DNA of 64,000 nt from Ulva prolifera (taxonomy: Eukaryota; Chlorophyta; Ulvophyceae; Ulvales; Ulvaceae). Below are positions 17,238 through 61,064 of this stretch, one piece after another. The stretch spans positions 2,220,800-2,284,799 of the forward strand of contig CM041198.1 in the NCBI GenBank assembly GCA_023078555.1, written 5' to 3'. Numbering within the stretch: the first letter of the stretch is position 1; every line of letters starts with the position of its first letter. Under the pieces are notes generated by a model. The model did not search any database, was not told the DNA's origin, and saw only the letters and a list, made by a program, of their open reading frames with translations. The position numbers and the translations under genes are program-made.

Positions 17238-20200
17238 TCAATACAGCCACTTTCGGCATCCAACGCTGCCGCAATGGCACCGCACGCTCGCCCGCGCCAC
17301 CTCCACGGCGGCCATCCCATAGTAATTCCACCGCAGCTCCGTCATCGCGGGGATGTCCTCGTCCGCAAACAGCGCGACGCCGTATAGCAGCGCGGCGCCG
17401 GCGCCCGGCAGCAGCACATTCTGGAGGGCCACGTTGGCGGCGCAGCTGTGGTTGAGGAAGCGCGCGACACTACCGGCGTGCTCCGCGTCGATCACGAGGT
17501 GCTCTGCGTCCTCCGGGATGTCGTGCGCAGCTGGCAGGTCCTCGCGCGACCTGCATGCATGCATGTATCGGCTCCACCGCTGCAGGTAGCACCATGCTGA
17601 CGCATCGAAGTTGACTGGACAGCAACATGGGGTCAGGAAGGGGGGGGGGGCGGGGGGGGGAGGCTGTTTCTGTTTGTGTCGGTGGTGAGTGGTGTGAGCG
17701 TCGTGTGTGCGAACTTACGAGCTGGAAGAATCAGCTGAGCCTTGAAGAAAGATAAGGATTGAGACACAGGCGGGCCCTCCAGTGAAGAAGTCAATACACA
17801 GATTCCGTGCTTGCAACATACACGTAATGCCAGGCGCACATTCGCAGTGAGGAAAGAGAGCGGACCTCGCAATGCTGCACAGCCGCACATGCATGCTAGT
17901 GGACACTACACAGCTGGCGTAAGGACACAGTGAGTGCAAATGGCAGGTATAGGTACCTACATAGTGCAGGCGCACCTGTAGGGTGTCCACCGGCATTTGG
18001 CTGTCGGAACAGGCGCTGGCGGCACCCGGCCGCCGTGGCATGAGCCTGCGGCGCGCGGCGCAGAGGGGGGGTTTGCTGCTAATGCCTGAAGCTCTCGGGC
18101 ACACATCCGCTTGTGCTTGGGCTTCTCTGCTCGTGCATGCATGGCCCCTTCGTATCTCGCTCCGCCTGCTGCCTGACAACAGGCACCGGCGTCCGGAGGC
18201 GCTGCGGCTGCCGCCTGCAGCTCTTCAAACCTCACCTTTCGCTTCTTGTTCTTGCCCACTGCAGTCGAGCTGAGGCACGAGGGCTCCCGCACCAGCGCTG
18301 CACATGGCGCTGGGGCCCCCGGCGCTGCAAGCGGCGGCACCGCCGCCGGCCGCTCTTCGCCGTCCACAGTAGGCGTGGCGCCTGTGAGACCCAGGCGCGG
18401 CCTGCTGGACGCGTGTGAATGCATGTGCTCCATGCATTTGACACCACGCACCGCCAGTTGTGTGCGCCCCTGTAGTTCTGGCGGCATTGTGTCGTCCGCG
18501 CCGCATTGTACCAGCGGCTGCACCTGTTGCGCTGCGCTTGCCGTCGTGCGCAGCGCTGCGTGTGCTGCGGCTGCCGGCGCACATGCATGAGGGTGAGGCT
18601 TGCCATCGGGCTCGGCGTCGCTGGCGGCATTGCTGCGATCCGGCAATGCGGCGTCGGCGGCGGTTGCGGGGGTAGGGACTTCATCTTGATGGCAATGCGC
18701 ATGCACCTTTGTGGCGCATGCGGCATCTGTGACATGCGCCGCATCGGGAAGCGCCGCCGCAGCGGAGGGCTGCAGCGGCTTTGCGATCAAGTGAGCCAGC
18801 AGCGGCGACACCGTGGCACCGCCGTTGCGGTGGACACGATAAATACGCGGCACACGCAGTGGCCAGCGATCCGGGGCTGCAGCAGCCTCATCAGCACGTG
18901 GCTGCCGATTGAGATCACTCGCCAAGGACGGCTGGGCCTCCGGGACGCATGCATGCGTAGATGTGTCGCTGGCGTTGGCGTTGCTCCCGGACTTGCTCCC
19001 CGTCGGATCCGACACACCCCCGCCAGTTGCAAGCTGCTGTGAGGTCTGCGAGACACCGCCGCACGCATGCATGCTGTGTGTGCTGTGCGCACTGCGCTCC
19101 AGGGTGCTGCGGTCGCATGACGACGGCAGGTGCCGGATGCCGTCAAGTGTGTTCGACACTTTGGGCGGCTGCGTGCTGTGGTCAGAACCCTGAGAGCAGA
19201 CAACTCTCAGCTGAGCTGCAGGCTCTGGAGGAACCGGGGTCAGGGCATCAGGCAGCTCGGCGCCGTGCATGCATGTGTCTTCCCCCAAGCATGAGCTGTC
19301 CTGGCTGATACGGACCACACCATCCGGTGCCCCGTTCGATGCGTTGCAATGTAGCACCCCAGCCACTTCGGCTCCAGGCTGCCCGTCTTCCGACGTCACA
19401 GCATGCACAGCAGCAGCCCCCGCATGCATCGCGGACGAGTCCGCAACAGCAGAAGACGCAGAGGTGAGCCCAGCACGCGCAGCAGGATCGCCCGGCCTGT
19501 GCAGCGTGATCGCGTCGGTACACTGCGGGGGCAGTGTCCCACGGCGCTGAGGTGGCGGGTGGCCGCCGCGCGTCCACGTCACGAGGTCCGCGGCTGCCGC
19601 GGACTTGTGTTTGAACATTGGCATCCTGGGAGCTGCGCGGGGGAGGGTGGCGCAGGGGATGACGGGGAAGCGGTGTAGCTCCTCCTGCACATGCAGGCTG
19701 CCTGTGGAGGCGCGGCATACCATGACGAGTGATCATCGGCGCTGACATTGGAGGCAGCCCGACATGACACATACTGGATGTTCACACTGATCATGAAGCA
19801 CTTGTGCACGAAGCATCCATTTGAAATTGTCTACAGTGACCGCGTCGCAGCGCCTGCACACTCAAGGCAACCCTATCACGTATTCCCACAGTGACCTCTA
19901 CTTTGAGCCGCCGCGGACACGCTGTGCTGCTCTTTCTGGCAATGCATCAAACAGATGCATGAGCAGGCCAGTACAGAATCGAGCCCCCCTCATCGAACCT
20001 TCGCGAAAATATGCAAATCTGTTGTGAATGCCATTGGGCGCGTTGAATCCGACGATCAGGGGATCACGGGGGAGCGGAACCGTGCGGAGATCCTCGGGGC
20101 GGTGGCTCAGCGTGAAGCAGGCGCGCGTGTAGTGGTCCAGCGACATGGTGTAGCGCCTGCGCTCCGGCACCTCCGAGTTCACGGCCACGGTGCCCGTGTA

Positions 20201-20330
20201 CGACGTCAGGAAGGTGCCCGCCGCGACGTCCACGGCGCAGCGCACGCCCCAGCCGGTGGGAGCCGGAGAGCCGTCAGGGTTCTGGTGCAGGAACAGCTGG
20301 AGCGGCAGAAACGCGCCGCGTGCTGTGACC
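17238..20330 (-). CDS. SET-A SET and post-SET exons split by a long insert
   Basis: Exon 20330-20081 encodes 'GAFLPLQLFLHQNPDGSPAP' and the GWGVR/YTG half of SET. Exon 19684-17976 begins EELHRFPV and is a 569-residue low-complexity insert rich in A, H, P and S, ending WTPY. Exon 17550-17238 encodes the NHSC half, the catalytic tyrosine region and post-SET CxCxxxxC, and stops. All phases match (0, 2, then 1 nt). The insert lies where the variable SET-I region sits in SET folds. Confidence 0.8.
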
Positions 20331-23300
20331 CTGCACATGGCGGGAGCGATGGCGTAGCTGGCCCGGAGCAAGAGGCATTTTTCCTTTCTACACAATGCTT
20401 CGGATGAGTGGTACAGGAATGTCATCTTGGACCAGGCCTCGGACGGGGGGAGGCGCACGACTTGAGGGGGCAGGAGCAGCCCGGCTCGCACTCCACCAGC
20501 GGCGTGTGGTTCCCCAGTGCCTCGAGCCGGCCACCCCTGCCGATGCGCACACTGCCTTCCTCCCGCATCCGCGCCAACACTGCAGCACACTCTGAAGATC
20601 GTCAAGCCAGCCCACACGTCCATGTCCAGCAGAATCCGACCCTACGGACGGGCCACACAACGCCCGTGGCAGAGTCTGCATCTGTTCGGCCATGCATGCA
20701 GCACGCCATCAGAATTCGAGCGCAGGAGATGCGAGATTTGTTTGCGATATGGCTCACTACCCGCCATCAAGGCATTGCAGAGCTCCTGTACGTCTGTGGG
20801 TGCTTCCGGCACCCCATATACGGTTTGGCTGCTAGCAGTGCGCGCCCCGACGCATCAGCACTCGGCAAATGTTTTACGCGCCACATGTCCGACGGCAGTG
20901 CACATGCTGTGGGTTGACGCGTACACAACGGAGAGAACGCACTGTCCGGTGGCCCCTCTGTCTGCTTGCACCCCGCCCACATGTCTGCCGGCCGGGACGG
21001 GGGGTACACAGCGTCCAGAAACTCTCGCGCGGCGGGCGTTGCGGGCAGCGCGGCAGGATCGGTGCAGTAGGTGAAGCTGTCGGGGAAGATCGGCGGCGGC
21101 GCGAGGCCGGAGGCGCGCAGCGCAGCCGGGTCGTCGATCACCGCCGGGATCGGGAATGCCTCTGCCCCTGCGCTGATATCCGCGCAGTACACATATTGCT
21201 GGCCCTGCACATGCATGGGGGTCATGCGTGGATACAAAGCAGGTCTGATCACAGGCCAGTGCGTAGTTCAGTCGAGCTCAAGCGACACCAACGTTCTCAT
21301 ATAAGCAATGGTGCTGGTGAGCTATAATCGTTCAAATGTACTGAAATAGCATGATCATGACACCAGCTTGTGTGGCCTCGGGAAGCGGTGCGGCAGTGCC
21401 AGCGCACCTGGACACATTGAGTCACACGCTTGTGCAACCCCACCAGAGTCCCGAGCTTCAAGAGCACCTTCCACCGCTCCTTGTGCACGACCTCACTTGG
21501 CACCTCTAACCGAGGACGCTGACGCTGCACCTCTGCCTCCGCGCCTCTCGCATCTGCCTCATGCATACCTTCGGCCGTGTCCGACCCTCCCGTCGAGGGG
21601 GGGTCTACGACCGCAGTCAAACGGAAACGCAGGAACATGCTGCGTGCTGCGGTGTCTGGCGGCGGGCCGCTCGCTGCGGGTGCCTTGACGTGGCTGGGTG
21701 CGCCTCGTCTGCGCTTCGTCTTGGGCACGCCCCGAATCCGGATCCGTGTGAAGGTCTGCGGATGAGCCGCCGCGCAATCACGCAGCTTCGCACAAGCGGG
21801 CACCGGATTCTGCGCCGGCCTGTTCGAGAGGGTCGTGGTGACAGGGGGAAGGGGCCCGTCTCGGCGAGCACTGAGGGCCTTCGCCATACCGGAGGCGCCT
21901 GCTTTTGCAGCCTCGTGTCCGGATGCATGTGCTGCACCGTGCCGCAGCGTGGGAGGTTCCGCCTGCGCCGCCGCCGGGATACATGCCGCACCGACCCGCG
22001 CACTGGGCAACTCATGCGCTTCCCCCTGTGTGCCGTCCCCCCCGGCAGCAGCCGCCGCCGCATCTGCCCCCCCAGCACCGGCTGAGCTGCCGCCTCTGTA
22101 CGAAGTATCATTGCATGGCGCAGGGGTGTCAGATGCGGCAGGAGGAATCAGCGGTGGCAAATCCCCAACCGTCGGAGCCGCCACGGCTGCGGCCTCCGCG
22201 GCCAGCGCAGCAGGCACAGCATCGGCCACGGCGCAGCGTACCGGCCGCTGCTGCTCTTCCGTCAGCGCACACATCGCCGCGGCCAGGACCTCGTACTCGC
22301 ACGCGTCGTGCCCGGTTCGCTCCAATGCATGGCGTACATGCATTGCGGTCCCGCCGGCGATCCGCACGAGCGAGAGCACGCCCGCGCACCGCGCGCAGAG
22401 GTCGTGCACGGTTCCCGCGTCGTCAATGCTGCGGCTGGAGGCGCCAGGGGTTGCGTGCCCGCATGCGGCGCAAGCGCTGCTGGCCGCTCCAGCGGTGTGT
22501 GCAGCTGCGGCTGCTGGCCCCCATTCGCCACCCGAGGGGGAGGGGGAGCTGGCACAGGCAGCTTTCCCGCCGCACACAGCCACCCCCGACGCCTCTGCGG
22601 CTGAGGCCCCATTGCGAGAAGGTGCACGTGGGTACCCCTCCCGTGCAGGTGGCCCAAACGCATCGCCGGCTGTGGCCCCGCCACAAGCATATGCACATCC
22701 CTCGTGCATAGCGCCTGCATCCGATGCCAGCCCGCATGCTGCCGTACTGGATTTGAGGGGGCCGCGAGAGTCCGCCTCTTGCGCAGCGGGGGTCTGGCGA
22801 GCAGGCTCCCCGCATGCATGGCCTGCAGGCTCCCCGCATGCATGGCCAGGAGCACAACAGCCGCCCTCAGCTTCCCCGGTGCACGCTGCAGAAACAGGCT
22901 GCTGATGCAACGCGCAGGCCGCCGCTGCATGGACGGCAAGCCCCTCTGGATCGACATCCGCAGCTCCCTCCTGCATGCACCATGCACCCCACATCTCCGG
23001 ACCGCCCCATTGCACATCTCGAACAGAGATCGCTGGCGCTGCTGCCACGTTTCTGCGATGTTTGCATACATTTGTGCACTCGACAGAGTGACTGCCGGGC
23101 ACACGCGCGCGCGCGGACAGCCACCGCAGGGCATTCCCATAGCCATGGACTGGAATCAGTGATGACATCGCAGGCGCCTCGATTACGTTCACGCAGCCCT
23201 AGATCTCGGTACACATGGGAAAAGATGCAGACTGCAGTTTCCAGAGCTGCGCTCCGCGACTCAGCAGTGCTGCGCCAGCACCCGTGTTTACAGTCACTGA

Positions 23301-26534: not shown

Positions 26535-27526
26535 TCAACCCACGGTGTCCTCCTTCTTGAGAACCTTCCGCAGCGTGGCCAGCACCGCAGCCCGCGCCTG
26601 GTCCGCTGTTGGCCGCGCCTGGTCCGCTGTCGGCTGATTGGCCGCGGCGGCCGTCTCCACAGATGGCCGCTGCCCCTGACCCCCGGGGTTCCCCCCTGTA
26701 CCCGTCCTACCTGCGCTGACAGCCTCGATGCCCCCGGGCGGACCGCGGCCCCCCGTGTCTGTCGCCTCGGGCTGCTGTTGTGCTGGGGATGGCACTGCTG
26801 CACGCTGTGCGTGCTGTGGCGGTTGGGGTGGGGCGGGGCCGACCTCCCCGCCGCGAACCTGTGATGCTGCGTCAGGGTGCTGTGGCACCACGTCAGCCTC
26901 TGTGATCTGCACGCGTGAGGGTTGAGGCACGAGGGGAGTGGGTGTGTCGCTCGGCGCCGCTGCAGCGGCCGTGTGGGGAGATCGCACAGGCGCGGGGTCC
27001 GCATCAGGAGGGACGGTCCCATCACACGGTTGCGGCGATAGCAAAGACGCGGGGTCCGCATCAGGCGCCACAGCCCGGGCAGCCTCTTGCGGCGATGGCA
27101 CAGGCGCAAGATCTGCATCAGGCGCCGCAGCTCCGTCCCGCGCTTGCAGCGATCGCACAGGCTCGAATCCGGAATCGGGCTCTGCGGTGTCATGACACGT
27201 TTGCGGGGATCGCACGGGCACAAGATCCGCACCAGGCGCCGCAGCCCGGGCAGCCTCTTGCGGCGATGGCACGGGCACAAGATCCGCACCAGGCGCCACA
27301 CCCCCGGCACGAGCATCGCAGTCCTGCGGCGGCTTGACAGGGGTGCCGTGCTGTGCATGCTGCGCAAGGTCTGCGGCAGGCGGAGGGGCGCGTGCTGAGC
27401 TGGCGCCTGCAGGCGCGCCTCCACAGGGTTCATGCGGCGGTTCAGCACGTTTCGGCCCCGCACGCTTGAGACGGCGGACCTTGGCGGCCACACTGTGTAC
27501 GGCACGGGCAACCCGCACGGGTTCCT

Positions 27527-27580
<54 letters not shown>

Positions 27581-30541
27581 CCCGGCCTGCAGGCGCTTGC
27601 CCCGCACCGTCCGCCGCAGCCGCACGTCTCTGTTCGTTCATGTCCGCATCAGTCGCCCCGCACGCCGCTCCGCCGCGCCCGGGCGCTGCTTTCCCCGCGG
27701 CGTCCCCGCCAATGCCGCATGCATGCACCCCATGCATATTCACCACCGCATCGACAGAGACGCTTTTGCTGCACGGCTGATCAGGGGTCGACCGGCCGGT
27801 TTCATGCGCCGCACCACGCGCACGCTTCACGGCGCATGGTGAGTCCTCGCCGGGCCTATCCTGTGCATGAGCCCTCCGCCGCCCGGACCCGTGCGGGCCG
27901 GCTCGCGCGGCCCCCGCATCTACCGCAGCATCTGCCGTAGCATCTGCCACCGCCGGCTTGCCCCCGTCCTCCTCATGCGCCCCGCTCGAACCCCCTCCCC
28001 TCCGTTTACACGCACGGCACAACGCGTTCATGTTTGGATGATTCGGATGCCCGCAGCCGACACACAGGGTGCCGGCGTCGATGTGTCCCGCCGCGGCGAC
28101 GTGGCGGCACAGCTGCGCTACGGTCGCGTCCACTCCGAGTTCCGCAAACGCGGTGCGTAGGTGCTGGGACACCCCCCGGCATTTGAGTTTGCCACGCAGC
28201 CGATGACAGGTTCCGCAGTACAAGTACCTCGTCGACTTCGTGGCTTCATTCCGGCCGCAGATGTTGCACCTCATCTTCCCACCCCCCTGCCGCTCCTCCC
28301 GCTCCGCCACCGACCACCTGAAGCGAACCCTGGGCTTCTCCGCGGCGGCCTCGGACCCGCTGCCGCCTGGCCGCGCCGCCGAGCCGCCGGACACAAGCTT
28401 CCCATCGCCCGTCCCTGCGGCGCTGCTCGCGTCGATCCCGCAACCCCCACTGGGAGCCTCTGCATCCGCAGCCCCCTCCTCGTCGCTGCCCCCACTACTG
28501 ATGCTCCCCGACGCGTCGTCCGCGTGCTGCCACTGCAGCAGCTGCTGCGCAAACGCAAGCACCGCCGCCCACGCCGCGTCCTGGCCGAGGTTCTCGTACG
28601 CGGCACGCAGGCAGTGCAGCGCCTCGTCGCCGTGCAGCTGCTGCCGCAGCTGCTTGCACATAGCGCAGCACAGCATGGATGCCGCACGGTCGCGGCCGCG
28701 GCAGATACGGCACTTGTCGCCGGCGTCCGGAAGAGCCTCCAGCTCCTCCACGGGCCGCCGCCTCTTGCGGGCCCCCTCTACTGCTGCTGTCCCCGCTGCT
28801 GCTCCACCACCGGCATCGGCGGGGCTCGCAGATTGCTCGGCGGCTGCTGGCGCCGCACGGGAGGCCGCGCCGGGGGCCTTTCTGCAACCAGCATCCCCAC
28901 GGGACAGGTCGTCAGTGCACGACGCTCGAGCAGGGTGTTCAGCGCTGCCGCGTGCTGCGTGCTGCGCGGCCTGCGCGATGAAGGCGGCCGGAGCGGTGGC
29001 TTCAGGCGTCGCCGGGGCAGGGTCGACGCTCGCTCCCCCGCCGCATGGTGCACTTCCCCGTTGACGATGGGCGTCAGGGCGCTGGGCGTGCTGTGCATGC
29101 TTTGCGCGCCGGCCGTTCGTGCCGTTTGAGGACTTTGCCGGCACGCCATCGGGGGACATGCGTTGCGCCGCGGTCTGGGGGGTGTCTGGGAAGGCCTTGC
29201 AGATTCCGGGGTCTGGGGACGTGTCGCGTGGCGGGGGCGTGCGGTGTGCTGGGCTTTTGCTGCGGCACGGCAGAGACTGGCCGCGCATTCCGAGCAACGT
29301 GAAGACGAACTCGTGGCGATCTTCGTCTTGATCTGGCGGGGTGGGGGCAGCTGCTGCAAGGCTGGCTGTGCTCCTGCATGTGGCTGCCCGCGGTGAGCAC
29401 TCTCCGAACGGCAACGGAGCTGACCATGCACACATCATCAGTCTAGCGTAAGGTCCACTTTCGCACGCGATCCTGGCTGCAACGGCACGCTGCCGGTGCC
29501 CCTCACCAACCTCACTCCTTGATACCGCATCTCCATAATGGCACCATAATGGCATTCTTCCCTGTTCATCCCACACGGCAAGGTACGGGAGCGCACCGGC
29601 CGCTTGAGACCACCCGGAAGAGGCCCTCATAAGTGTACTCGAACTGTTGCGTGGCTTCGCCCGGGCGCGTTTGCGGCGCGGTCGCAGTGGCGGTTGCACG
29701 CACGACGCGGATCAGCGTGCCCCACACAAACGCTTGCATCATCGCGCTCGCCTCCTGCAACCCCACACCCGTCACGATACTGCTGCTGGCCACACTGAGG
29801 CACACAGACAGTGCATGTCCAGCTCAGCTGACCTGATCCACCTCACAAGTGCCCCGCCAAATGGTTCGATCGCCCAGCTATGCGGCCATTAAAAAAACAT
29901 TCGTCGAGGTACCCTCCAGCTGAATATTCTGTAGGCAATACGCTTTGAAAGACCTGATTTTCACCGGTACGCAGCTGCCATCCAGTCTAGAGAGGCATGT
30001 ACTCTGGCTCTCTCATCAGGGGTGATCGTTGCAGTTCCGTGGCCGACAAAAGCATTGAAATCGTTTGAATGTTGCATGCGTCGGGCCAACAGCACACCTC
30101 ACGAGAATCCCTGTCAACGTGTGCTACCACTACACTCAGCTCCAGCTGCGACACCCCATCAGCCACACCGCTCCAGACTCCACCATAAGCCACCAAAGAC
30201 GTCACCTGGACGCCCCCCGCCACGCGCTTCTGGCCACTCTGCCGGAGAAGCGCAATCGGCCGCTGCGTCGGCACGTGGATGCGCGCGGCGGCAAGCTCTG
30301 CTCGTGTGGTGAAGGTGGTGCCCCGGACGGCGAAGCCGGAGTGGCCAGGGGCGTCCGCATGCGTGGCCGGCGAGGTGAGGGGCCGCGTCATTACCTGGGG
30401 GGCCTGTACAGTATGCGTGGTGTTCAAGATTTGTCTGCATGGACATGGCCTGGGAGGCAGCTAGCACCACCGGATGCGGCAAGTGGCAGCAATCGCATGG
30501 GTGTTGCATTAGTTTACTCTGCATGATATGGTGTGCTTACC
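26535..30541 (-). CDS. SRA-B: SRA (YDG) domain protein with CxxC modules, no SET
   Basis: Core exons 30403-30098, 29754-29597 and 29361-26535 join in frame (1096 residues to the stop). A likely upstream exon ends at 30541 (...VQCLHCK, donor GTAAGC). The SRA N-half reads 'GHSGFAVRGTTFTTRAELAA' and the C-half 'TLIRVVRA' and 'YTYEGLFRVV', the YDGLYxV signature. 'HEFVFTLLGMRGQS' matches the FKLxRxPGQ stretch that ends the domain. The last exon carries two full modules (CRIC...CAMC...LRAAYENLG, 28712-28528; CNIC...CGTC...LRTAFAELG, 28268-28090), a CxxC pair (28068-28003), poly-alanine and near-tandem APDADLAPVPSP-type repeats. Expected role: reading methylated DNA in chromatin. The stop at 26535 separates it from SET-A unless an unseen splice skips it. 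Confidence 0.75.
27527..27579. repeat. CAG/CTG trinucleotide run encoding poly-alanine
   Basis: About 17 uninterrupted CAG units. In the minus-strand SRA-B frame they read as GCT and give about 18 alanines after GRDA. Poly-leucine or poly-serine readings in other frames are shadows. Confidence 0.9.
29597..30403 (-). CDS. SRA-B SRA-domain exons
   Basis: Exons 30403-30098 (102 codons, donor GTGTGC) and 29754-29597 (donor GTGCGC, phase 2). The boundary positions and phases are identical in SRA-A and SRA-C, which strongly supports the models. Confidence 0.75.
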
Positions 30542-33053: not shown

Positions 33054-36000
33054 TCACGCCGCAGCACGCTCAGCACGCGCGCGGCCGCGCCGGGCCTGCC
33101 GCCGCCCCGTGCCGCCTTCCTGTGTCGATTCGTCGCTCGCCGGCGCATCCTCCGGCCGCGCCCACAGCAGCATCTGCTGCGCAAGCAGCCGTATCTTTTC
33201 CTGCGCTGCGCGGTGCCCGAGGCTCTCATACGCCATTCGCAGGAAGTGCCGCGCCCGCGTGCCGCGCAGCTGCCGCCGCATCTGGGTGCACACCGCGCAC
33301 TCCCGCTCGGGCTCCGCGCGGGCGCGGAACCCGCAGATGTCGCACGCCGCGCCCGCCTCCGCGGGCACCTCCGCCATCTCCGCAGGCACGCCCGCGCCTG
33401 GGCCGGGCGGATCTCCGACTGCTGCGGACTCAGCCCGGGGGTCTCGCTCCGCGCTCCTGCTGGCTGCTCCGGATGCAGCTGCGGCAGCCGCCGGAGCCGG
33501 CGCCGCGGCCGCCGCAGATGCGGTGGCCGCGGGAGCATCCGGGGGAGGGTCCAGGGGAGTGTCCGGGGCAGTAGCGAGGGGGGTGTCAGTAAGAGCGTCG
33601 GCAGCACCGCCGGCGTCAGCTGACGTGGCGGGGGATGCAGGCCGCGGCGAGCCGCTCGCGAGGGCCAGCGCAGCCTCCCGGGTCGCAGAGTCGCCGAGCT
33701 CCGCGTATGCATCCCGCAACCGTGTCGCCGCACGCGGTGGGCGGAGCTTCGCTCGGTCGCGCGTGCACTCTGAGCAGTAGGAGAAGTTTGGCAGCTTGGG
33801 CCGGCGGAAGCAGATCGCACAATCCCGCGCGCCCCCTGGTGTGCCTCCAGCCGCGCCATCTCGTTCCGGCGCTCCGTGTCCACAGGCGGGGGAGGCTTGT
33901 GCGGGTGACGGTGGCGCCGCGCCGGCGCCGCGGCCGGCGGGGGTCGCAGGGGTGGAGTGCCGGCGCTTGTAGTGCAGCATCGGGCCACCGAGGCCGGGGA
34001 CAAGCTGCCGCGCGCAGTCCACGAGCGCGTCCCGGTCCGCGTGGGGCCCGAGGCGCGTGTACGCGTCCCGCAACGCCTGGATGCTGCCGCGGCCGATGCG
34101 CGCCCGCACCTGGTTGCAGAAGTTGCAGTATGGCTTGGCCGCGGTGCCCTGCGCGCGGTGCAGGCACACCGTGCACACCCGCGAGCACGCCACCACCTCT
34201 GCATCGTCGTCCGTGGCTGCCGTGGCATGCGAGGAGCGCGCGGCGGCTGGAGCTCCGCTGGACGCACGCTGCGTGCTGTGTGCTGTGCGCTGGCTGCTGG
34301 ACTTCTGCCCCGCATTGTTGCCCCCGGAAGGAGGCTGGCATGCGGTGCCGATCTCCGCGCCTGCTGCGTGCTGTGCACGCTGTGCCGCGGGTGCCTGTTC
34401 GTTTTCAACTGGCGACCGCTGAAGAGGCGGTGGAGTTGGCGCCTCGCGCGCATGTGGGGACAGCAGTGCATGCGCACCCTGCCCTGCGTGCTGTGCTGCG
34501 TGCTGGGACGAAGCGGCGACAGGGGCCGCATCGTCAGCGGCCACAGGTGCGGCATCGGTCTGGCACGCTGCGCTGGGGTGGTCGGGGGTGGCCGCATGCT
34601 GCGCGTGCTGGGCGCGCTGCGCGTGTGCTAGGGAATCCCCCGGCACACCCTGAAGGACAAACACAAAGTCACGCTCATCGCCCTCGTCCTCCGACAGGGT
34701 GGCATCAGCCGCGACGTCACTGGACTGATCCCTGCATGCATGGAGTGATGTGTTGATCCAAGAACAAAAAACCGTGTTTGAGGACAGGCGATGATGGCGT
34801 GCACACGCAGGAGTCCACGCTCGGGGGGCGCGCTGCGCCTGCCCTGGCACGTGCACTGATGCTGTCATTCTCGGCGCAGCTCTGTCATGGACGCCGGGCG
34901 CGACCGCACGGATTCAACCCTGAAGGCCTCCCACCAGCCTCCCGGACCTCCGTGTAACAACTACCTGGCCACTACGGTGGCGGCATTTGTCCGCCTGTCC
35001 CCACAGACTATCTGCGCGTGGTTGCACAGCTCAATATATCCTGGGACGAAAGGGTTCGGTGCATGTGCGGGGGTGGTGCCAAATACAGCAGTGCATGTAC
35101 AGGGCTGGTGCGTTTGTGGCGTTTGTGCGGGTGAAGCTGGGGACCGGCATACCTGCCGCAGCCGACGACAGTGAACAGGCCTTCGTACGTGTACTGGACA
35201 CCCCGGCTGGCGGTGGGGCGGGGCGCGGCTGCGGGCGCGCTTGCGGCGCGCACAACCCTGATTTTTGTGCGCGTTGTGTAGGCGCACGCCATAGCCACCG
35301 TCTCCTGCACGGCACCCCCTCGGTCGACACGTGTGCGGCGGGGCCGGCGGCAATGCATGTGCAGTGCGCTGACGCCCTGCACTCTCGTGTGCCACTTCGC
35401 AATATGGCTTCTTCAGGAAGTTGCTGATGCAGGCAAAGGGCGCAGGAGTCCTGAATATGCCGGACAAACAAACGAGAATTGTACGGAAGAAACAGCGCCG
35501 CCGCCCCCCCCCCCCCCCCCCCCCCCCACACGTAGTAAATCAAGACAGCTCTACGTGAGCTCAGGCTTGTTCGCAGCAGGGCACCAAGACAGATGTGAGA
35601 GCAACACAGACTCACGCATCACATGCACGGAGAACTAGTTGCTGACTGCAGGAATCATGCAGGCATCAGCCGCCCCTCCCCTGGCGAAGTCTTTGGCCAG
35701 CCTGTGGGCAGCCTCGCCAGCCTGCGCTTCGCCCCCACCCATCACATCTGGTCCCACCGTGTCCGCCATGTGTCGCAATGCATGAACATCATGCATGTAC
35801 GCCACACGCACCTCGTCCGCGGCGCTGTCTGCCGGCAGCCGCAGCTCCACGACCTGAGACCCATCGGCGGCGGCGAGACTGGCCGCTTCGCCAGGGACCA
35901 TCACCGAGGTGACCCGGGGCCGCTTCCGCCGGATGCCGCCTGCCGCCGCGGCGCAGCCGACGCGCGGGTGGCGGATCGCGACGGCGCGGTCCCGCGGCAG

Positions 36001-36420: not shown

Positions 36421-36458
36421 TGAACACAATCACCAATGCGGTCCATGGTGTGCATATA

Positions 36459-39900: not shown

Positions 39901-42900
39901 TCAGTCCCGGCAGCCCCATCGCAGCTCCGTCATCGCGGGGATGTCCCGCGACGCGAAGAACGCGGCGCCGTAGAGGAGCGCGCTGCCGGCGCCTGGGAGG
40001 AGGACCGGCTGGACGGCGACGTTGCCAGCGTGAGCGCGGGTGCGCTTGAGGAAGCGGGAGACGTTGCCCATGTGCTGCGCGTCGAGCACGAGGTGCTCCA
40101 CGTCCGCGGGGACGTCGCCTGGCCAGGGCACGGCGCCGTGGCCTCTGCAGCGCAACCGCATGCGTTCAGGGCTGCACATTCGGTAGCACCTGCGGAAGCG
40201 CGGCACGCAGCAGGTGCCAAGTGTGCCCCCGAGGGCCGCACCGTCAGTGAGAATCAGACGAGCACAGCACGCAGCATATGCCAAGAACGTGTCGGACCTG
40301 AAACGCTTGCACAGGGTAGCATAGATCTGCAGAACTGTTATATGCGCCCACTAATAATTGCTGTTGCTGAAAGCGCCCGTCTGTCTGAGGCGCGTGCAGC
40401 TCGTTTCCGCGTGTGGCCGCACACAGCGATGGACGAATGCATATGCATGCATCAGTGGCACACGCATGTAGCCCAAGTCAGCGCTTTGACGATTCTTGAC
40501 GACATACAGCTGAGGGATAGGAAAAAAGAAGGGGGTGGGGGGGTCTCACCTGTACGGCGACCAGCAACATGCCTCAGTTTGGTCCACCGAGATCGGCGCG
40601 GCGTTCGGTTGCAAGACGTCGTTGTTTGGGTGGCGGGGCCACTCATCCGCGACCAGCACCACCGCACATGACCCGGCCTGCGCCGCGCCGGGCGCTTGCG
40701 CCGTGGCTGCGGTGCCGGGGGTTGTGGCAGGGGCCGGGAAGGGGATCGGGCCGGGCACGGAAGGTGACGGGTAGGTATCGTGTCCCGTTTGCCGGTGGGA
40801 CGGCGGCTGCTGCTGTGGGCGTGCTGCGGCGGCTGAATGACTTCCTGCAGCGTGGGGAGTGCCGCTAACGCACGCACGGCTTGAGCATTCTAGCAATGAG
40901 GTCATGGTCATCAATGTGAGCTGAACCGAAACGGGGTCCACTAGTGGACACCTGGTCCGACGGGTTGTTTTTTGTTAAACGAGACACAATGAGTGGTGAT
41001 GTCGCTTCTGCAAGTACCAGCCGTCAAAGCCTGTGCAAGGCCTAGCACTGGACTCTACCGCGAGCCAAACGACAGGCGGCGCCGATACCCACTCTACCTG
41101 CATCGCGTTGCCGCGGCCTCACACCGCGCTGACTCAGGCTCAGCCGCAGCGTGCAGCAGCTGGACAGCACACCACACACGCTGTACAAGTAACCTCGCAG
41201 TGCGAGCGGATTCGTACCTGCACCCGCCTGCTGTGCCGCGGGCGTCGGCGCAGCGGCGGAGGCCGACGGCTGCCGCAGCGCCTGCTCCACAACCGCCGTG
41301 CCGCGGCTCATGCCGTGCCGGAACAGCGGCGGCACCCACACCACGCTGTCGTAGCTGTCGCAACCTTCCTCCCCCTCCCCCTCCTCCTCCGCCTGCGCAC
41401 CGCCGTGCTGTGCTCTGTGCTGTGCGCCGTGCTGTGCGCCGTGCTGAGCGCCGTGCTGTGCGACACGGTGCCGCGTGAGTAGCAGCGCATCGCTTGCCTC
41501 TGTCTCTGCCGGCACGGCAGGTGCTTCGGTGGCTGCGTGCGGGGGCGCTTGTGGAGGGGGGGCCTGTGCCGCCGCCGGGGGGCCAGGAGTGGGCGCGCCC
41601 GGATGGAGAGGATCGACCGCGAAGCGCCAGGGTACGTAATCCTGCAGGGCGTCGTCGGAGGCGACGGCGGCGGAAGAGTCGAACGCCGGCGCGGCCGGGT
41701 CCGTGCGGCGGAGGGTGGCTGAGGGGACGACTGGGAAGCGGTGCAGCTCTTCCTGTAGTGGGGTACCACGGTCGGTGGGCCCTGATTGTGCTGAGCTGGT
41801 CGTACCGGTGGCACTCAAGTGACCCTTTGTAAACCCAGTCCGGGCCTGCGCAACCAGGCTGTTGTGCATCTCGCGGTGGCCGCGATCGCTGGGATGGACG
41901 GGTGGGTGACGCAGCGCCCAGGGCGGACACAGGTGCATGCACATCTGCGTGGCGGACTTGGCCCACAGCCACGTTTACCCATGACAGCGGCAACAACTTC
42001 GAACGAAGTGTGCGTGGTGTGGCACTATTACATGCATGACACACATGCGTGTCGTGAGCAGAACCTGGAGGGGGGTGCACGCACAGGTATAGGCTGCTCG
42101 CAGCCGCTGCCGCCCCGCAGAGCAGGGGCCCAGCGCACGAAGTGATCCAAGGGAACGATGTGTTTTCCCGCCTCCGGCACGCCGGCCCGGGCCGCCGCGG
42201 CGGTCTCGGACCGCGTCGCGACAAAGCCGGTGGCGACGCTGATGAACGTGCCCTTCGCGATGTTCACCGCGCAGCGCACGCCCCAGCCGTCGGGAGCCGG
42301 GGAGCCGTCGGGGTTCTGGTGGAGGAAGAGCTGCAGCGGCAGGAACGCGCCGCGGCCGGTCACCCTACAGCAGTCACCAGGGTGTGCATCTTCTGTTGCT
42401 CGGCATGGGTCCGCGACTGCCTTTGCTTGAATCCGCATACTTGCCTGATGCTGGATCGAGTAAAAGCATTTGTGGAACTGCAATCCAGATATCAACCCAG
42501 ATATTCTGGGATTGTTGTATTTGAGCGGGCGTGAAGAAGCGACACAAGTGTGCAGGTGCCGAACCACAGACCCAAGCGGGGCAGCGGGAGAGGGGGGGTG
42601 CGCACGACTTGAGGGGGCAGTGGCAGCCGGGCTCGCACTCCAGAAGCGGTGTGAAGTTACTGAACGCGACGAGGCGGCCCCGTTTGCGCAGCTTCACACT
42701 GCACGCCTGCTGGTCCAACAGCTGCGCCGCCACTGCATACCATACGCTGTATGTTAAGGAGAATGGGAAAAATTGTAATTATTATAATATGATGATTATT
42801 ATTCTGATATATATAATATATTTTTATATTATGCAAAATATAATATAAAAATAAAAGTCGTGAGCCACCAGCCTGCTTGCAACCTCCATGACCACTCGTA

Positions 42901-43407
42901 TGTCCATCAAGCGAAATGGCTGTGGCTAGCTGAGATCAAGCACATCCTGCTCTGTGAAAAATGATCACAGACACCTGCACGTGGAATGTGGTCCCCTTCA
43001 TTCGGTGTTTCAATGCCGTCTTCAGAGATAGGCCAAGTAAATCCAGTTTAACATCACCTCGCTACAACAGAACAGAACAAAGGAGGGAGCAAATGGCAGT
43101 TGGGGCAGTGGAGACAGTCGCCTCACTCCAGATTACAGGCCGCACCTGCACCGTCAGCGTACGTCTTCCGGCATCCGGCCCACATGTTGGCAGGACCCGA
43201 GGCGGGATATGCCTCGTCGAGGAGCTGCCGCGCAGCAGGCGTCATGCACAGCTTGGCCGGGCGGTTGTGATACCGGAACCCCTCCGGGTAGATCGGCGGG
43301 GGGGACGTGCCCCAGACGCGCAGAGCCGCGTAGTCGTCGATGATCGCCGGGATGGGGCCGGTCTCCATTCCGCCGCTGATGTCACGCTCGTACACAAACA
43401 TCTGCTC
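39901..43407 (-). CDS. SET-B pre-SET and split SET exons
   Basis: Pre-SET 43407-43163 and 42698-42606; SET-N 42364-42085; insert 41752-41218 and 40844-40550 (276 residues, starting EELHRFPV and ending WSPY exactly as in SET-A, but cut by an extra intron); SET-C 40144-39901. Phases match throughout, including a one-base carry from 41218 into 40844. The NHSC, tyrosine and post-SET motifs are absent. Confidence 0.78.
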
Positions 43408-46400
43408 CTGCAGCAGCGGATAAGCACGTGATCACATTGGTGCTGATTTGGAACCTGTCCCAGCATTTATGACGGCTGAGCAGTGACGGAAGGACTGTCG
43501 ATATGCCCCGGAAACGGGTAGCATCACTTCTGCTGGCGACAGGTCTACACGATGCAGGATATGCATGGCAACGCATACGCCGTCAGCATGCCGATACACT
43601 AGCCCACACCGCACAGCTCAAATCGACATGTTGAGGGGATACGGCAGCAATACACCGGTAGCGTGGGGGGGATCGCACATCGATGGCCTGCATGACACGC
43701 TCATGCAGCCCGGCCAGCGTGCCGCGCTTCCGCGTTGCGCGCCACGCGCTGTGCTGCGCGACATCGGCCGGCAGCGCCAGCACGCCGCGCCTGCCGAGCA
43801 CCCGCGCCGTGCCGACCCCGCCCCCGTCGTTCTCCACCACGACGCACGCGCCGGACGACGCCTCCGCATCGTCCTCCGGCTCCACGGCAGCGGCCGCGGC
43901 TGCGGCGTGCGCCGCCGGAGGGGCGGCAGCTGCGTCCGCGGTGTAGGCTGCGACGGTGTGCTCCGTCTCAGGGTCCGCCTCCATCTCCACCTCTGGCGGG
44001 GCCGCAGTGGCCAGAGGCTCTTCGGCAGCCGCGGTGAGGCCGCTAGCGCCGGCAGGCTCCCGGGCAGCCTCTACACTGCGGTGGCCCCCACTCTCCGCGG
44101 CACCCCAAAGCTCCGGGAGCCCCCCAGCTGCGGGGGCCGCGGCGCGTGCCTCAGCGGGGCTGGCGACGCCTGGCCCCTCCACATTCGCGGCACACATCTT
44201 CTCGCGCACGCGCTCCGCGACCGCCTCGCGTGGCGCGTGCTGCCCGAGCTCAGCATACACAGCACGCAGGGCCGCCACAACCCCGGGGCCGCTCAGACGC
44301 ATGCGCATCCGGTCACACTCAAAGCAGTACACCCTCCCGCTTGCCACAGGGTGCCATGTGCAGATACCGCACGGCGATCGCACGCGGGGAACCGCCGCCG
44401 CGCTGCTGTCCGCAACACCGCCGGTGGCCACTTGCCCGGCAGCGGACGTGGCGCCAGCTCTAGCGTCGCCGCTGCGGCGTGAGGTCCGCCCCTTGGCTGG
44501 GCTGCGCCCGCTCTGCGGCGGCTGCCGGGGCGGCCCTGCCGCAGCTGCCCCTACAGAGTGCACACGCCTCGCGCCGCTGGCATGCGTCTCCGCCGGTTCA
44601 CTGCGAACCTGCCGCTGTGCCGCAGCTTTGACTGCGAGCTCGAAGAGGTCGGCCTCGGAGGTTCCCGGTCCATGCTGGGGTAGAACTTCCCGCATGAGGT
44701 CAACGGCTCTGTGGACTCCGCTGCGGTGGAGCTTGTTTTGTAACCGTTCGCATTTGGGGCAGTAGGGCCGCGCCAGGTACACAGCGCGCGGGTTCGGCTG
44801 GTGGCAAACCCTGCACGCCGGCGGGGCACCGGCGACTTGCTCCTGCGACTGTTCCTGCTGGCCCCACTGAATCGACCACCGAGGGAACTTCACTCGGTCG
44901 GAGGCTGAAGGGTCGGCAAAGTCCGCAGGCTGCCCCACCGACTTGCTCCGGGTGTGCCGTGCAGGGTTTGCGCCCACGCTGTGCGCGAGCCGCGAGGGCG
45001 CCGCGTGGCGCGGCGTGGACGCCACTCGCGCGCTGCGCGCGCGCTGTGCGGGTGCCGCCGGGGTCGTGTGCCCGGCCTGCGCCGCCGATCTTCCGCCCGC
45101 ATGCTTTGCGGCCGTCTCTGCTACAGCGGCCGGCGCGACAGCCCCCCCTGCTGGCATACTCGCTCTCCTACCTCTACGCGGCTGGCGTGCTTCGTCAGCA
45201 ACCGCACTGTCTGCCGCCCCCCGCCGTGCTGACGCACGGACGGCCCGCGTAGATGATGGCGCCGCAACGGCAGGCGCCGTCTTGGCCCCGACAGCCGCGA
45301 CAGCTGCCGCGCCTCCGTCCGCCTTCCTCCGCTTCTCGTCCGGCCCCCCCGGCAGCTCCTCTGTCAGCCGCCGCCGCTTCGGCACCCCCTCTGCGCCCCC
45401 GCGGGCAGCAGCTGACGGCGCGCTTCCTCTCCGCCGCCTCAGCCCGCCCGCCTTGGCCAACTTCACCACATCTTCCACCGCTGCCGCACTGCCGAGCTGC
45501 CGGTATGCCTCGCGCAGTTGCGGCAAGCCGCAGGCACGTCCCGTGTCGCGGCGCAAATTCCCACCTTCCTTTTCGCAGCGCGCACAATATTTGTAGCGGC
45601 GCTCCGGCGGTAGCGGCTCCCGGCCGCATATGTTGCACAGGGCCTGGCTCCCCGTGCCGGCGAGGGCTGCCGGTGGACTCTCGAGAGGTGCGGCTCGAAT
45701 GAATCCGGCTGGGGCCGCCGCCGCAGCCTGCGGAGGACTGGCTGGCGCGGGGGGAGGAGGTGCGGAGGCCCGGGTGACCCGGGACACAGCCCGCCGATGC
45801 CGCGCTGTTGCGGGGGCAGCTGTGTTGCCGAGGGTGGCCACAGGGGCCACCGGCTGCGGATGCGACCGGGCGCGCCGTGTTCGTGTCACCGCGGGGGTAG
45901 CAGGACCCCCAGCTGTAGGCGGTGGCGCAGCGTTGTGGGCGGGGGTGGCCGCGGGGGCCGCAGGCCGCGGCTGTGACGCAGCACGCCGCTGACGCGTCGT
46001 CACGGCAGGGGCAGTGGGACGCCCAGCCGCCGGCAGCAGTGGTGGCGCAGGGGTGTGGGTAGGCGGTGGAGCTGCAGGCTGCGGATGGGATGCACCACGC
46101 CGCTGACGCGTCATGGCCGGGGAAGCGGGTTGCGGCACCGCCGACTGCGGTGGTGGCACAGGGGTGTGGCTGTAGCGCGGCGCTGCAGCCGCAATCTGCG
46201 GCTGGGAAACGGCACGCCGCCGACGTGTCACTGCCGGAGAGGATTGGTTCTCGGCCGCCTGGAGTGGAGGTGGCGGCGGCGCGGCAGCGCGGCTGTGGCT
46301 AGGCGCGGGAGCCGCAGGCCGCGGACGGGACCCCGCACGCCGCGAACGCATTGCCAATGCTGGGGCAGTGGCACGTGCGGCTGTCGGCAGCGGCGGTGGC

Positions 46401-47636
46401 GCGGGAGTTGCGGCGGGGCCGGCCGGCGGTGGGGCCATCTCGGAGTCTTCCTTCCGCCGCATGGCAAACGCGGCGGTGGAGGCGATGCCAGTGGCAGCTG
46501 GCGTGGAGCTGGCGATTTTCAGCGCAGCCTGCAGCAGGATAACAGCCCCAATTAAGAGTATTTTTGGAGACCGGAGTGGCACCTCAGGCGTGTGTCACCT
46601 TTGTTTCCAGGGGGCAGCAGCGGCAGTCACAGAATACAACGACATGTTCTGTTTCTGCTATTTTTTTTATGCAAATGAGAGTTTCGGGCGCGGGGCAGGG
46701 GTGCTCGGTCTTGTGCAGGCCGGTGAGGCACCTGGTGCATGAGCGATACCACACTTGATCAGAACACGAGCGTGCAGGCCTGTGAGGCCACACGAACCCG
46801 CTGAACACGACGGCGGCCTGGCTGGAATGGGTGCCACGCAGTCCAGGCATGCACCGTACATGCACCCCCATGTGCTTGGACAGCGTGCCCAGAGGCTGCA
46901 CATCCACTGGATCAGATCTACCGCCAGCGCATGCGAGCAGGTATCGACCACAGCAGACTGCATCGTAGCAGAGGAGGCACTCAGCGACATCGGCCACGGG
47001 ATCAAGGAGGCAGGCAGGGCCCGCGGGAAGTGAAGGCTGGAGGGCGCGGCCGCCTCGGCGGTGGCTGCTCGGGCTAACCGGCCGTAAGTGGAGGGCAGAG
47101 GAGCGACGTGCCCCGCCGCTCGTGCAGTTTCACATGAAAAAAGATCGTTACATGCGGCTCATTCGGCGAGCAGTTCGACATGCCTGGGTGCGAGGATCTC
47201 TGCGGGGATCTGCACGAGCCAGCATTGAGCAGGGGGGTTGGGGGGAGGCCCCAGCAGCGCAGATTGCATTCGCGAGCCCACGGGTGGTCAGCCGGCAGCG
47301 TGCAGACAGGGTGGGTGCACGTAGCATGCCCAGATAGCCTTGTGCACAAGGGGCCGATGACAATTCCAAACCGGGTGCCCGCGGGTGCCCGCGTGCAAGA
47401 CGGAGGTGCAACGGGGCGAGAGGCGGGCGCACCCGCAGCACCATCAGGTCCTCCGCGTCAGGGCCAACGCGCATCAGCGCCTCGCAGAGGTGTTCCGCGG
47501 TGCCCCCGGCCAGCGACACGACCTCCATGAGGCGCGCGACGCGGCTCCGCTCCGGCGCCACGCCGCCGCCCGCCGCCGCCGCTCCGCTGTCACTGGGGCC
47601 GGCCGCCTGCTGCATCTGCGCAGAGGAGATGTCCAT
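39901..47636 (-). CDS. SET-B: SUVH-like SET protein with three CxxC modules, catalytic motifs lost
   Basis: Eight exons: 47636-47433, 46528-43679, 43407-43163, 42698-42606, 42364-42085, 41752-41218, 40844-40550 and 40144-39901. They sum to 4746 bp and read 1581 residues in one frame. Start MDISSAQ, then the helix 'LMEVVSLAGGTAEHLCEALM'. The 950-codon exon has proline/alanine repeats, three modules (CNIC...CARC near 45636, CRVC...CPKC near 44812, CGIC...CFEC near 44360) and 'GTLAGLHERVMQAID'. Pre-SET 'DISGGMETGPIPAIIDD' and 'ECEPGCHCPLKSC' follow. SET has 'GWGVRCAVNIAKGTF' but ATG for YTG, 'RFLKRTRAHAGNV' for NHSC, and it stops after 'ELRWGCRD' with no post-SET. Probably non-catalytic; possibly a scaffold or a decaying copy. 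Confidence 0.78.
42764..42858. other. AT-rich island in SET-B intron
   Basis: About 95 bp that is nearly all A/T (TTATTATAATATGATG ... ATAATATATTTTTATATT) within GC-rich sequence, inside the intron between the two pre-SET exons (43162-42699). It could be an organellar DNA insertion or expanded AT repeat. No gene is readable in it. Confidence 0.7.
43679..46528 (-). CDS. SET-B large exon with three CxxC modules
   Basis: 950 codons, phase 0 at both ends, acceptor CTGCTGCAG, donor GTGCGA. The N-terminal third is a series of proline-rich repeats around 'TRxRRAxSxPQPxAP', basic and probably disordered. Each module has CxxC, 9-14 residues, CxxC, then a helix pair ending LRxxYxxLG or similar. The C-terminal part is acidic and alanine-rich. 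Confidence 0.75.
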
Positions 47637-52983: not shown

Positions 52984-53042
52984 CCAGAAGCAAGACTGAT
53001 GATGCCAGCGATGGGGCGCCTACGGGAGAGCGGCATGGTGCA

Positions 53043-59094: not shown

Positions 59095-61064
59095 TTAATT
59101 GCCACGACAGGTCAGCACACCTGCAGAGTCGCTGGCCGTGTGCTCCATGGCGCCATCCCATTCGCGCCTATCGACCACACCACCGCTGCCATCTACGGCG
59201 ACTGCTCCTTCGCTGGCCTCACTTCGGTTCTGCTGGGCTTGACTTTGGAACGTTCCACTGCTGACGTTTGAGCAGCCTGGCCCAGTGTCACATGAGGGTG
59301 GTCGCAGGCGCGGTGACGGCACACATGCGTGCGCGGCTTCGTCGCTGGCCTCCACCTCCGCGCACTCAAGGCCCGGACCTGGAGCATGCATATCTGGCGC
59401 AGAAGGTCCGACCCCGGGGTGGCCACCCTCGGCAGCCGTGCCCGCTGGAAGAGCTGGCCCCGTAATGAGTGTTTGAACAGCAGCCTCTTCCGATGGCTGT
59501 GGGGTTGCGGCGTGCTGCGTGCTGTGCATGCTGGCACACTCGCGCCGCCGCTTCCGCGGCCCTGCCGCCGCGACCCCTTGTTCGGCAGAGCATGCGGTGC
59601 CGCGCCCGGGAGGTGCGGTAGAGTGGCCGGGGATCCCGGTCAGTGAGAACACAAACGTGTGCTGCTGCTGGCCCTCAGCTGCTGGAATCCTGCAAACTGT
59701 TCCCTGTCTGAACGCGCGTGCGAGAGTTCAAGCTTTACCTCTCGATTGGCTGTGCACGCCGTTGCAAACATGTGGCATGAGAGACTGCGTGGACGAACGC
59801 ACTAGCTCAGAGACACTTCACCACAACGGCCACTGCCCGCACAGAAATCTGGAGCCGAATTCAGGTTGATGTGTACGCACGAAAAGCCGTGAGGTTATGC
59901 ACAATTTGAGCAGGCAAATCAGGACCAGAGAACGGCCAGAAATTGACGTCCGAGCACTGGACTAGTGAGGTAATACACTGGTAAACTTACTCGGCAACTG
60001 GCAGGCCGTTTACGGTACAGCCTTAGTGTGGCCCATCGGCCGTAGAGGGGATGAAACACGACCGGGGGGGGGGGGGCACACTTGCTGCACTGCATGACCT
60101 CAAACAGGCCGTGGTACGTGTACACGCATTGTGGGGCCGCTTCCACGAGATCGGGCGCTCCAGCCACGCACACTCGCACGGGGGAGCTCAACGCGAGCGC
60201 CATCGCCAGTGCCGCTGCTTCCTGCACGCAGACATCTCGCATGAGATGATCGTGCAGATCCTACAAGTCTGGTTCATCATGCAAAACGGTGTGATGTGTC
60301 GGTTTGACAGGTGGAGGACTCGCCGCTGCGCTGTGCATGCTGTGACTTGAAGTGCATTGGGAAGAGACGGGGGGCTGCTGCGGCAGCACCTGACGCACCA
60401 CCGTCAATGGAACGCGCCGGCTGCCGGATGCTGGCTGATACGTGTTGCTTCAGCGCACGCATCGAAGCTCATGATGCCGGTGCCATTCGCACAGAGTAGG
60501 CCCACACCGCTACCACATCATTCAGTGCATACATGCATGCCCGGCAGGGCTGTGGTACAAGCGCGGGCCCGGCCTCGCGCAATGAATGAGTGCGTGGGTG
60601 TGCGAGTGACCTCCGAGAACCGGCTTCATATCCGGCCTCGGTCCTTTGTAAATACACGCATCCGCATTCATGCATGCAGAGGCTGCGCGGCACTGTGCCC
60701 AGGTGTGCCCCGCTCCGGCCGCCCCCAGACGCTTTGCACGCACAAGCATGGCCCGCACCAGGCTCGGCTCCGCGGCAGACTCACAGCGGACCCTTATCTC
60801 TGCACGCGGCTGGCCGCTGTCCGATGCCTGCATGCCGGCGCCGTCGACGAGGACCGACGTCGCGGCCATGGAGGCCCCCACCGGGTGCGCATGGGCCGCG
60901 GCAGCACCAGGCGCTGGCGCTGCTACGTCACGCACCTGCGGGACGTGCGCGCCTGCGGCGGAGAGATCCGTACGGCTGTGGAAAGTGGCTCCGAGTGCGA
61001 CGCCCGGAGGATGGCCAGGGGTGTCCATGGGCACCATACCCGGCACAATTGGCTTAAGCCGACC
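59095..61064 (-). CDS. SRA-C: SRA (YDG) domain protein without CxxC modules
   Basis: Exons 61064-60759, 60221-60082 and 59689-59095 join in frame (346 residues to the stop) with the same boundary codons and phases as SRA-A and SRA-B. Signatures: 'GHPPGVALGATFHSRTDLSA', 'ATSVLVDGAGM', 'SPVRVCVAG', 'YTYHGLFEVM', then 'QQHTFVFSLTGIPGHS'. An acceptor at 61065 implies an unseen upstream exon. The last exon is a short disordered tail (KRRRECASMHSTQHA...) with no module, so it is a shortened paralogue or its 3' exons are not recognised. Intron 1 contains an old LINE remnant and intron 2 starts with a G-run. Confidence 0.68.
60539..60659 (+). mobile_element. Old LINE 3'-end remnant in SRA-C intron
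   Basis: GGGCTGTGGTAC ... GCCCGGCCT ... GAGTGCGTGGG ... CCGGCCTCGGTCCTTTGTAA follows the LINE 3' end in order but with many differences, then TACACGCAT. It is antisense to SRA-C. Much older than the other copies. Confidence 0.6.

Follow-up and report, generated by a model that had tools for sequence, protein, structure and literature searches.

A cluster of SUVH-related genes in Ulva prolifera with SRA and SET domains on apparently separate genes

Organization of the cluster

SUVH proteins couple DNA methylation to the methylation of histone H3 lysine 9 (H3K9), with the reader and the writer in one chain. Here we describe a cluster of SUVH-related genes in the green alga Ulva prolifera, which lies in a 64,000-nucleotide stretch of contig CM041198.1 (C3:2220800-2284799, hereafter called “the window”; coordinates are in window numbering unless a contig is given). 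Five genes lie on the minus strand, in the following order from high to low coordinates: gene C (61.1-59.1 kb), SET-B (47.6-39.9 kb), gene A (36.1-33.1 kb), gene B (30.4-26.5 kb) and SET-A (about 23-17.2 kb). Genes A, B and C encode SRA domains, and their frames stop at 33054, 26535 and 59095, respectively, before any SET. SET-A and SET-B encode preSET and SET domains, and the profile scan found no SRA match within them. The shared strand and the three stops agree with an earlier, sequence-only reading of the window. We consider, with a probability of roughly 0.6, that the cluster is a local family derived from SUVH, which was duplicated, had its domains parted and partly degenerated, beside an intact fused SUVH.

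SRA domains of genes A, B and C

Single exons of the SRA genes match Pfam weakly (gene C, E = 3.5e-4 and 1.8e-3; gene B, E = 0.017), and no SRA match was obtained in the two single frames of gene A scanned with Pfam. For rescoring, the exon pieces were joined at approximate joints, with some inter-exon residues omitted. The joined SRA domains have E-values of 1.7e-8 (A), 1.8e-8 (B) and 6.4e-12 (C), all above the Pfam cut-off of PF02182. The joined domains exceed the Pfam cut-offs, which rules out chance open frames as their source. When used to query the database, gene A yielded zero matches at E 0.01 in a scored set of 8000 candidates; the probable cause is crowding of this set by the low-complexity parts of the gene.

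In SUVH5, according to the part of PMC4740795 drawn on here, the flipped base (5-hydroxymethylcytosine, and 5-methylcytosine alike) is sandwiched by Tyr416 and Tyr428 and held by Asp418. In our alignment, none of the three equivalents is present in genes A, B and C, and all three are present in the SUVH gene on contig C5 described below. The SRA of another copy, C3b, keeps both tyrosines without the aspartate. In the SRA tree, genes A, B and C cluster with a copy on contig C4 (support 100/99) and are separated from C3b and from the SRAs that bear the pocket; gene B forms a long branch. The pocket may have been lost in a single event, because these four group together.

SET domains of SET-A and SET-B

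The single-exon SET matches to Pfam have E-values of 2.7e-9 and 0.011 in SET-A, and 0.0097 and 0.26 in SET-B; the joined SET domain of SET-B reaches E = 3.6e-7 and passes the Pfam cut-off. The preSET of both genes is clear in comparison with the paralogues and the C5 gene, although the joined preSET of SET-B scores 14.2 bits against a Pfam cut-off of 29.1. A genome search with the preSET model PF05033 gave no match anywhere, and the control loci were likewise silent. When the joined preSET-SET of SET-A was compared with solved structures in the PDB, the top matches were the H3K9-specific methyltransferases Clr4, SUVH6 and DIM-5, followed by EHMT2.

SET-A retains the NHSC motif, the tyrosine region and the post-SET cysteines. 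NHSC and the post-SET cysteines are also found in C3b, in C3c (a further copy on C3), in the C5 gene, in two Ulva mutabilis proteins and in the ENA protein P0010. In SET-B, KRTRAHAGN stands at the NHSC position, the protein terminates at RWGCRD and the post-SET cysteines are gone, so that SET-B is probably catalytically inactive. The closest SET-A relatives found are these two U. mutabilis proteins, whose names point to one scaffold: UM105_0031 is 66% identical over 30% of the query, and UM105_0036 is 60% identical over 32%. The tree of the C-terminal part of SET has no supported branch (0 of 7).

A CxxC module shared by SRA and SET genes

Four of the five window genes carry a module consisting of a CxxC, a spacer of variable length, a second CxxC and a helical-looking part, which bears out the earlier observation that most of the genes share it; it was not found in gene C. 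The scans place three modules in gene A, two and a half in gene B and three in SET-B, and the single module of SET-A, missed by the scans, was recognized by eye. The four cysteines are kept in all nine aligned window modules.

The module has no convincing relative in the databases. Among 11 copies compared with Pfam, the best match was E 0.019 (DZR_2, 15.2 of 27 bits); nine families appeared, each with one copy only, and one copy gave a PHD match at E 0.021, which is not significant. The matches to PDB profiles, designed helical filaments for the helical half (E 5.8e-5) and RBBP6 for the cysteine half (E 0.031), were unconvincing.

The CxxC module exists apart from SUVH genes. At C1:8099769-8104708, two frames of 460 and 490 residues contain two helical modules each and two and one CxxC modules, respectively, with no SRA or SET match in either frame. 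A third module frame lies at C1:8110087-8110224 (weak match, E 0.128).

Relatives elsewhere in the genome

We searched the genome assembly (88.9 Mb, 44 contigs) for relatives. The Pfam SRA model detected six exon matches at three loci, on C10, on C5 and at C3:2.41 Mb; the window SRA exons were missed because they are too diverged. At the C10 locus (C10:994085-994763), the SRA looks canonical, carries the motif YTGSGG and scores highest of all Pfam SRA matches in the genome. The locus on C5 is an ordinary fused SUVH, with an SRA bearing SGGYxDD and YTGxGG, a preSET and a SET with NHSC, and the end of its SRA shares one exon with the linker.

Searching the genome with the SET-A protein produced 24 matches. 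Four loci, all on C3, are of the CxxC type: SET-A, SET-B, C3b (C3:2.40-2.41 Mb) and C3c (C3:1.76 Mb). The remainder are the C5 SUVH and three weak matches on C1 and C6. In C3b, about 120 kb from the window, the order is SRA, CxxC modules, linker, preSET and SET. A distance of 0.6 kb separates its SRA from the module frame, and the splice sites are compatible in phase, so that C3b is likely to be one fused gene. C3c has five CxxC modules, the linker, preSET and SET; no SRA match was found in the 11 kb upstream by the profile scan, nor nearby in two SRA genome searches.

The 14 matches of the SRA-A protein search comprise the three window genes, C3b and copies on C4, C6, C9 and C1. A frameshift interrupts the second module of the C4 copy, the C6 copy has frameshifts, the C1 copy has in-frame stops, and in the C9 copy the SRA is reduced to its first part. 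Within the 10 kb examined at each of these four loci, neither preSET nor SET was matched. The cluster is thus not representative of the genome, which also has the fused C5 SUVH and the probably fused C3b.

The genome contains eight exon matches to the DNA methylase family, because of which 5-methylcytosine may be present. RWP-RK is linked to the mating-type locus. We rejected the reading of the window as such a locus: the two RWP-RK matches, at C2:10.0 Mb and C3:5.36 Mb, are not near it.

Gene boundaries

Where do the SET genes begin? The first exon of SET-B (47636-47433) has an ATG in good context, preceded by an in-frame stop, and encodes 68 residues of a helical module. Acceptors were scored by how well they restore the conserved helical module, as compared to six unspliced copies (in C3c, SET-A and the two C1 frames). 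The acceptor at 46528 ranks first of 72 downstream candidates, with 53.6 bits versus 50.9 for the next one and 43.7 without a second exon. A coding-signal scan trained without the frame of this second exon places the exon start at 46531, and the splice from the ATG exon is phase-compatible. These data strongly suggest the SET-B start exon. SET-B most likely begins without an SRA, because the ATG exon, the best acceptor and the start of the coding signal agree. The earlier claim that both SET genes have first exons of their own and lack SRA most likely holds for SET-B; the profile scan found no SRA match in either gene, and the 5′ end of SET-A is uncertain.

Joining the SRA of gene C to SET-B is disfavoured by the SET-B ATG exon, by the 11.5-kb gap and by another copy of the exon lying between the two genes. 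This second copy (beginning MDVTVQPPED) lies at 54146-54340 on the minus strand and is followed by a coding-like stretch at about 53187-53807 on the same strand, in which the scan found no CxxC, SRA or SET match.

Where do the SRA genes end? Downstream of gene A on its strand, the first family exons encountered encode the SRA of gene B and not a SET. The end of gene A (ERAAA, then the stop) is matched in the C4 copy, as judged by eye. In gene B, the coding signal in a leave-one-out scan peaks at 26538, next to the stop. In frames ending at a donor, used as controls, the peak lies 54-177 nucleotides before the frame stop in five of six cases; in frames with a true stop, two of three peak 42 and 48 nucleotides before it. 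A separate coding scan, trained on the frames that it scored, was used for mapping only. TGTAA, the algal poly(A) signal, occurs within 300 nucleotides past five of eight stops (SET-A, 122; gene A, 286; gene C, 111; C5, 76; C3c, 290), and its background frequency on the minus strand of the window is 0.56 per kb. The SRA/SET split is mostly supported by the start exon of SET-B, by the SRA of gene B following gene A and by the coding signal of gene B.

Origin of the cluster

We propose that the ancestor was a fused SRA-(CxxC)n-preSET-SET gene, of a kind that probably survives about 120 kb away as C3b, and that it was duplicated in tandem. The halves would now reside on separate window genes: the SRA in A, B and C, accompanied by CxxC modules or not, and CxxC-preSET-SET in SET-A and SET-B. 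Descent by splitting from a common ancestor, as the sequence-only reading suggested, is the best-supported account, with some room for gene B and SET-A being one gene.

Several points weigh against this account. The coding scan is a blunt test: the sixth donor control overshoots by 141 nucleotides, and the third true-stop control, the C5 gene, fails, probably because of its differing codon use. The scan also overshoots the stop of gene A by 120 nucleotides and peaks at 59308, 213 nucleotides short of the stop of gene C. TGTAA is found 652 nucleotides past gene B and 940 nucleotides past SET-B, and there is none in the 1 kb past C3b. The C4 copy is broken, and its likeness to the stop of gene A could reflect descent alone, even if that stop is intronic. 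The U. mutabilis models begin in or near the SET insert, so the 5′ end of the gene is not visible there. The putative fusion of C3b is deduced from the matching phase of splice sites 0.6 kb apart. Loss of the pocket residues may be compatible with another mode of DNA binding. Finally, constraint on the SRA domains is weak, because the ratio of nonsynonymous to synonymous substitution rates (dN/dS) is 0.33-0.64 across the six SRA pairs.

A doubtful alternative, though the strongest of those considered, is that A, B, C and SET-B are functionless, decaying duplicates and that SET-A alone works. The loss of the pocket in the SRA genes and of the catalytic motifs in SET-B would fit such decay, as would the broken or fragmentary copies of gene A on C4, C6, C1 and C9 and the dispersed repeats that adjoin the genes. 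The ratio of nonsynonymous to synonymous differences (pN/pS) is 0.63-0.77 in all six SRA pairs and 0.50-0.69 in the three preSET-SET pairs with SET-B. However, the frames of genes A and B are open over 619 and 1058 codons from stop to stop with coding-like codon use, the module cysteines are kept throughout the window, and dN/dS of the SRA pairs, cited above, is still below 1 in every case. Among SET-A, C3b and C3c, dN/dS of preSET-SET is 0.31-0.37 in all three pairs, and it is 0.38-0.61 in the three pairs with SET-B.

It is somewhat less likely that gene B and SET-A form one fused SRA-CxxC-preSET-SET gene, with the stop at 26535 lying in an intron of about 3.6 kb. C3b, with the same order and its phase-compatible splice sites, offers a model. 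The SET-A coding signal starts at 22973, next to a possible acceptor, cag/GAG, and the last 450 nucleotides of the gene B frame contain three GT(A/G)NG sites, one of which, the phase-0 site GTGGGT, lies six bases ahead of the stop codon; moreover, TGTAA is absent within 650 nucleotides past that stop. However, the coding signal of gene B rises up to its stop, and GTGGGT is preceded by ACC, while eight of the nine donors inferred by eye have G before GT. ATGs at 22976 and 22994 are possible SET-A starts, SET-A opens with a helical module of the same kind as that of SET-B, which has its own ATG, and the introns inferred in these genes are mostly shorter than 1 kb. We infer that gene B and SET-A would be transcribed separately.

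Functional implications

If the cluster is a duplicated and parted SUVH family, SET-A would be a working H3K9-class histone methyltransferase, recruited to chromatin via its CxxC zinc modules or via partners and not by an SRA of its own. The A, B and C products would be SRA-fold proteins without the methylcytosine grip, acting at most as DNA- or protein-binding adaptors or decoys, and SET-B would be either a SET protein without catalytic activity or a copy in decay. The identity of the domains, the order of the genes and the loss of motifs are shown directly; all of these functions are inferred. It is improbable, in our estimate, that Ulva has gone further and dismantled SUVH, such that an SRA without SET or pocket, together with a lineage-specific zinc module, reads something other than 5-methylcytosine and steers or blocks SET in trans.

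The least probable idea, and the one put forward by the sequence-only reading, is that the two kinds of protein work together in trans, the SRA proteins reading methylated DNA and the SET proteins writing H3K9 methylation: the linkage and co-orientation of the genes, CxxC modules on both halves that could pair, the DNA methylase-like matches and the intact catalytic motifs of SET-A would suit it, but it is unsupported because the SRA pocket residues are missing from all three window genes and the catalytic motifs from SET-B, and gene C and SET-B, one proposed pair, are both degenerate in their domains.

The cluster resembles the SUVH family (KYP/SUVH4, SUVH5, SUVH6, SUVH9) in the SRA fold, the linker, the preSET and, in SET-A, a SET with NHSC and post-SET. 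It differs in the apparently separate SRA and SET genes, the added CxxC module, the lost pocket and the degenerate SET-B. SUVR-type and other preSET-SET proteins without SRA are similar in that SET-A, SET-B and C3c look SRA-less; the window SETs, in contrast, carry CxxC modules, resemble SRA-linked paralogues on the same contig and show no WIYLD match in the frames scanned. UHRF1 and VIM/ORTH are SRA proteins without SET, just as in A, B and C no SET accompanies the SRA in its frame or in the next exons, but no RING match was seen in the frames scanned, the pocket is lost and A and B have CxxC modules. SUVH2 and SUVH9 are SUVH proteins thought to lack methyltransferase activity and provide a precedent for the probable inactivity of SET-B, although in SUVH9 a single chain contains both SRA and SET (PDB 4nj5).

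In the tabulation of PMC5725981, as far as it is drawn on here, preSET-SET is listed for land plants, charophytes and Micromonas and not for Chlorella, Chlamydomonas and Volvox, for which the SRA-preSET-SET fusion is listed; a passage of its text describes Su(var) proteins as absent from Volvox carteri. Pleodorina, a volvocine alga, has a relative of the C5 gene with a fused SRA-preSET-SET architecture. Among the matches listed in a search of literature titles, none concerned Ulva SRA/SUVH genes or a split SUVH.

The parted copies, with the reader pocket gone and one writer probably dead, offer a natural test of the interdependence of reader and writer. They also document the expansion of a family with a CxxC module lacking a convincing Pfam match, in a probably multicellular green alga. 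If SUVH was indeed dismantled, the reader and the writer of silencing would evolve independently.

Coordinates and other features of the region

Table 1. Exons and domains of the five genes
Gene	Feature	Position	Strand	Evidence
Gene C	SRA N-terminal exon, pocket residues absent	60774..61025	-	Pfam, profile scan, alignment
Gene C	SRA middle exon	60081..60224	-	Pfam, profile scan
Gene C	Frame with SRA C-terminal strand (59611-59682) and tail; stop 59095	59095..59727	-	Profile scan
SET-B	Exon 1, own ATG, helical module of 68 residues, donor gtgcgc, phase 0	47433..47636	-	Junction test
SET-B	Exon 2, three CxxC modules (45446-45646, 44618-44824, 44192-44380)	43679..46528	-	Profile scan
SET-B	Linker in exon 2; 3′ end of exon placed by eye at gat/gtgcga	43673-43762	-	Scan
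SET-B	preSET part 1	43171..43392	-	Profile scan, protein search
SET-B	preSET part 2	42593..42724	-	Profile scan, protein search
SET-B	SET domain, N-terminal part	42133..42366	-	Pfam, profile scan
SET-B	Insert exon, LQEELHRFP motif 41669-41758	41213..41782	-	Profile scan
SET-B	SET C-terminal part, without NHSC, tyrosine region and post-SET cysteines; stop 39901	39901..40116	-	Pfam, alignment
Gene A	SRA N-terminal half, pocket residues absent	35812..36129	-	Profile scan, alignment
Gene A	SRA middle part	35153..35304	-	Profile scan
Gene A	SRA C-terminal strand and CxxC modules (33999-34187, 33651-33830, 33171-33353); stop 33054	33054..34731	-	Profile scan
Gene B	SRA N-terminal exon, pocket residues absent	30125..30355	-	Pfam, profile scan, alignment
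Gene B	SRA middle exon	29599..29757	-	Profile scan
Gene B	SRA C-terminal strand (29265-29336), CxxC (28536-28721, 28083-28277), long tail; stop 26535	26535..29336	-	
SET-A	Exon with degenerate CxxC/helical module by eye (~22308-22490), donor cag/gtgcgc; 5′ end uncertain	21408..22970	-	
SET-A	Linker, same exon as the degenerate module	21402-21494	-	Scan
SET-A	preSET part 1	20968..21189	-	Profile scan, protein search
SET-A	preSET part 2	20449..20580	-	Profile scan, protein search
SET-A	SET domain, N-terminal part	20123..20332	-	Pfam, profile scan
SET-A	Insert exon, LQEELHRFP motif 19601-19687, long low-complexity stretch	18011..19687	-	
SET-A	SET C-terminal part, NHSC, tyrosine region, post-SET CxCxxxxC; stop 17238	17238..17522	-	Pfam, alignment

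The profile scan found no family matches in the flanks C3:2210800-2220799, 2284800-2304799, 2388000-2397999 and 2418000-2427999, and C3:2304800-2387999 was covered by the genome-wide searches only. A dispersed repeat, with pieces about 73-99% identical, occurs at window positions 2448-8639, 36448-36977, 47863-48085 and 60535-60676 and, outside the window, next to the C5 SUVH and at C3:1.750-1.754 Mb. Gene A has one copy immediately upstream, and a remnant is found between SRA exons of gene C. At 51371-52650, low-complexity sequence is repeated in tandem, and both strands contain long open frames.

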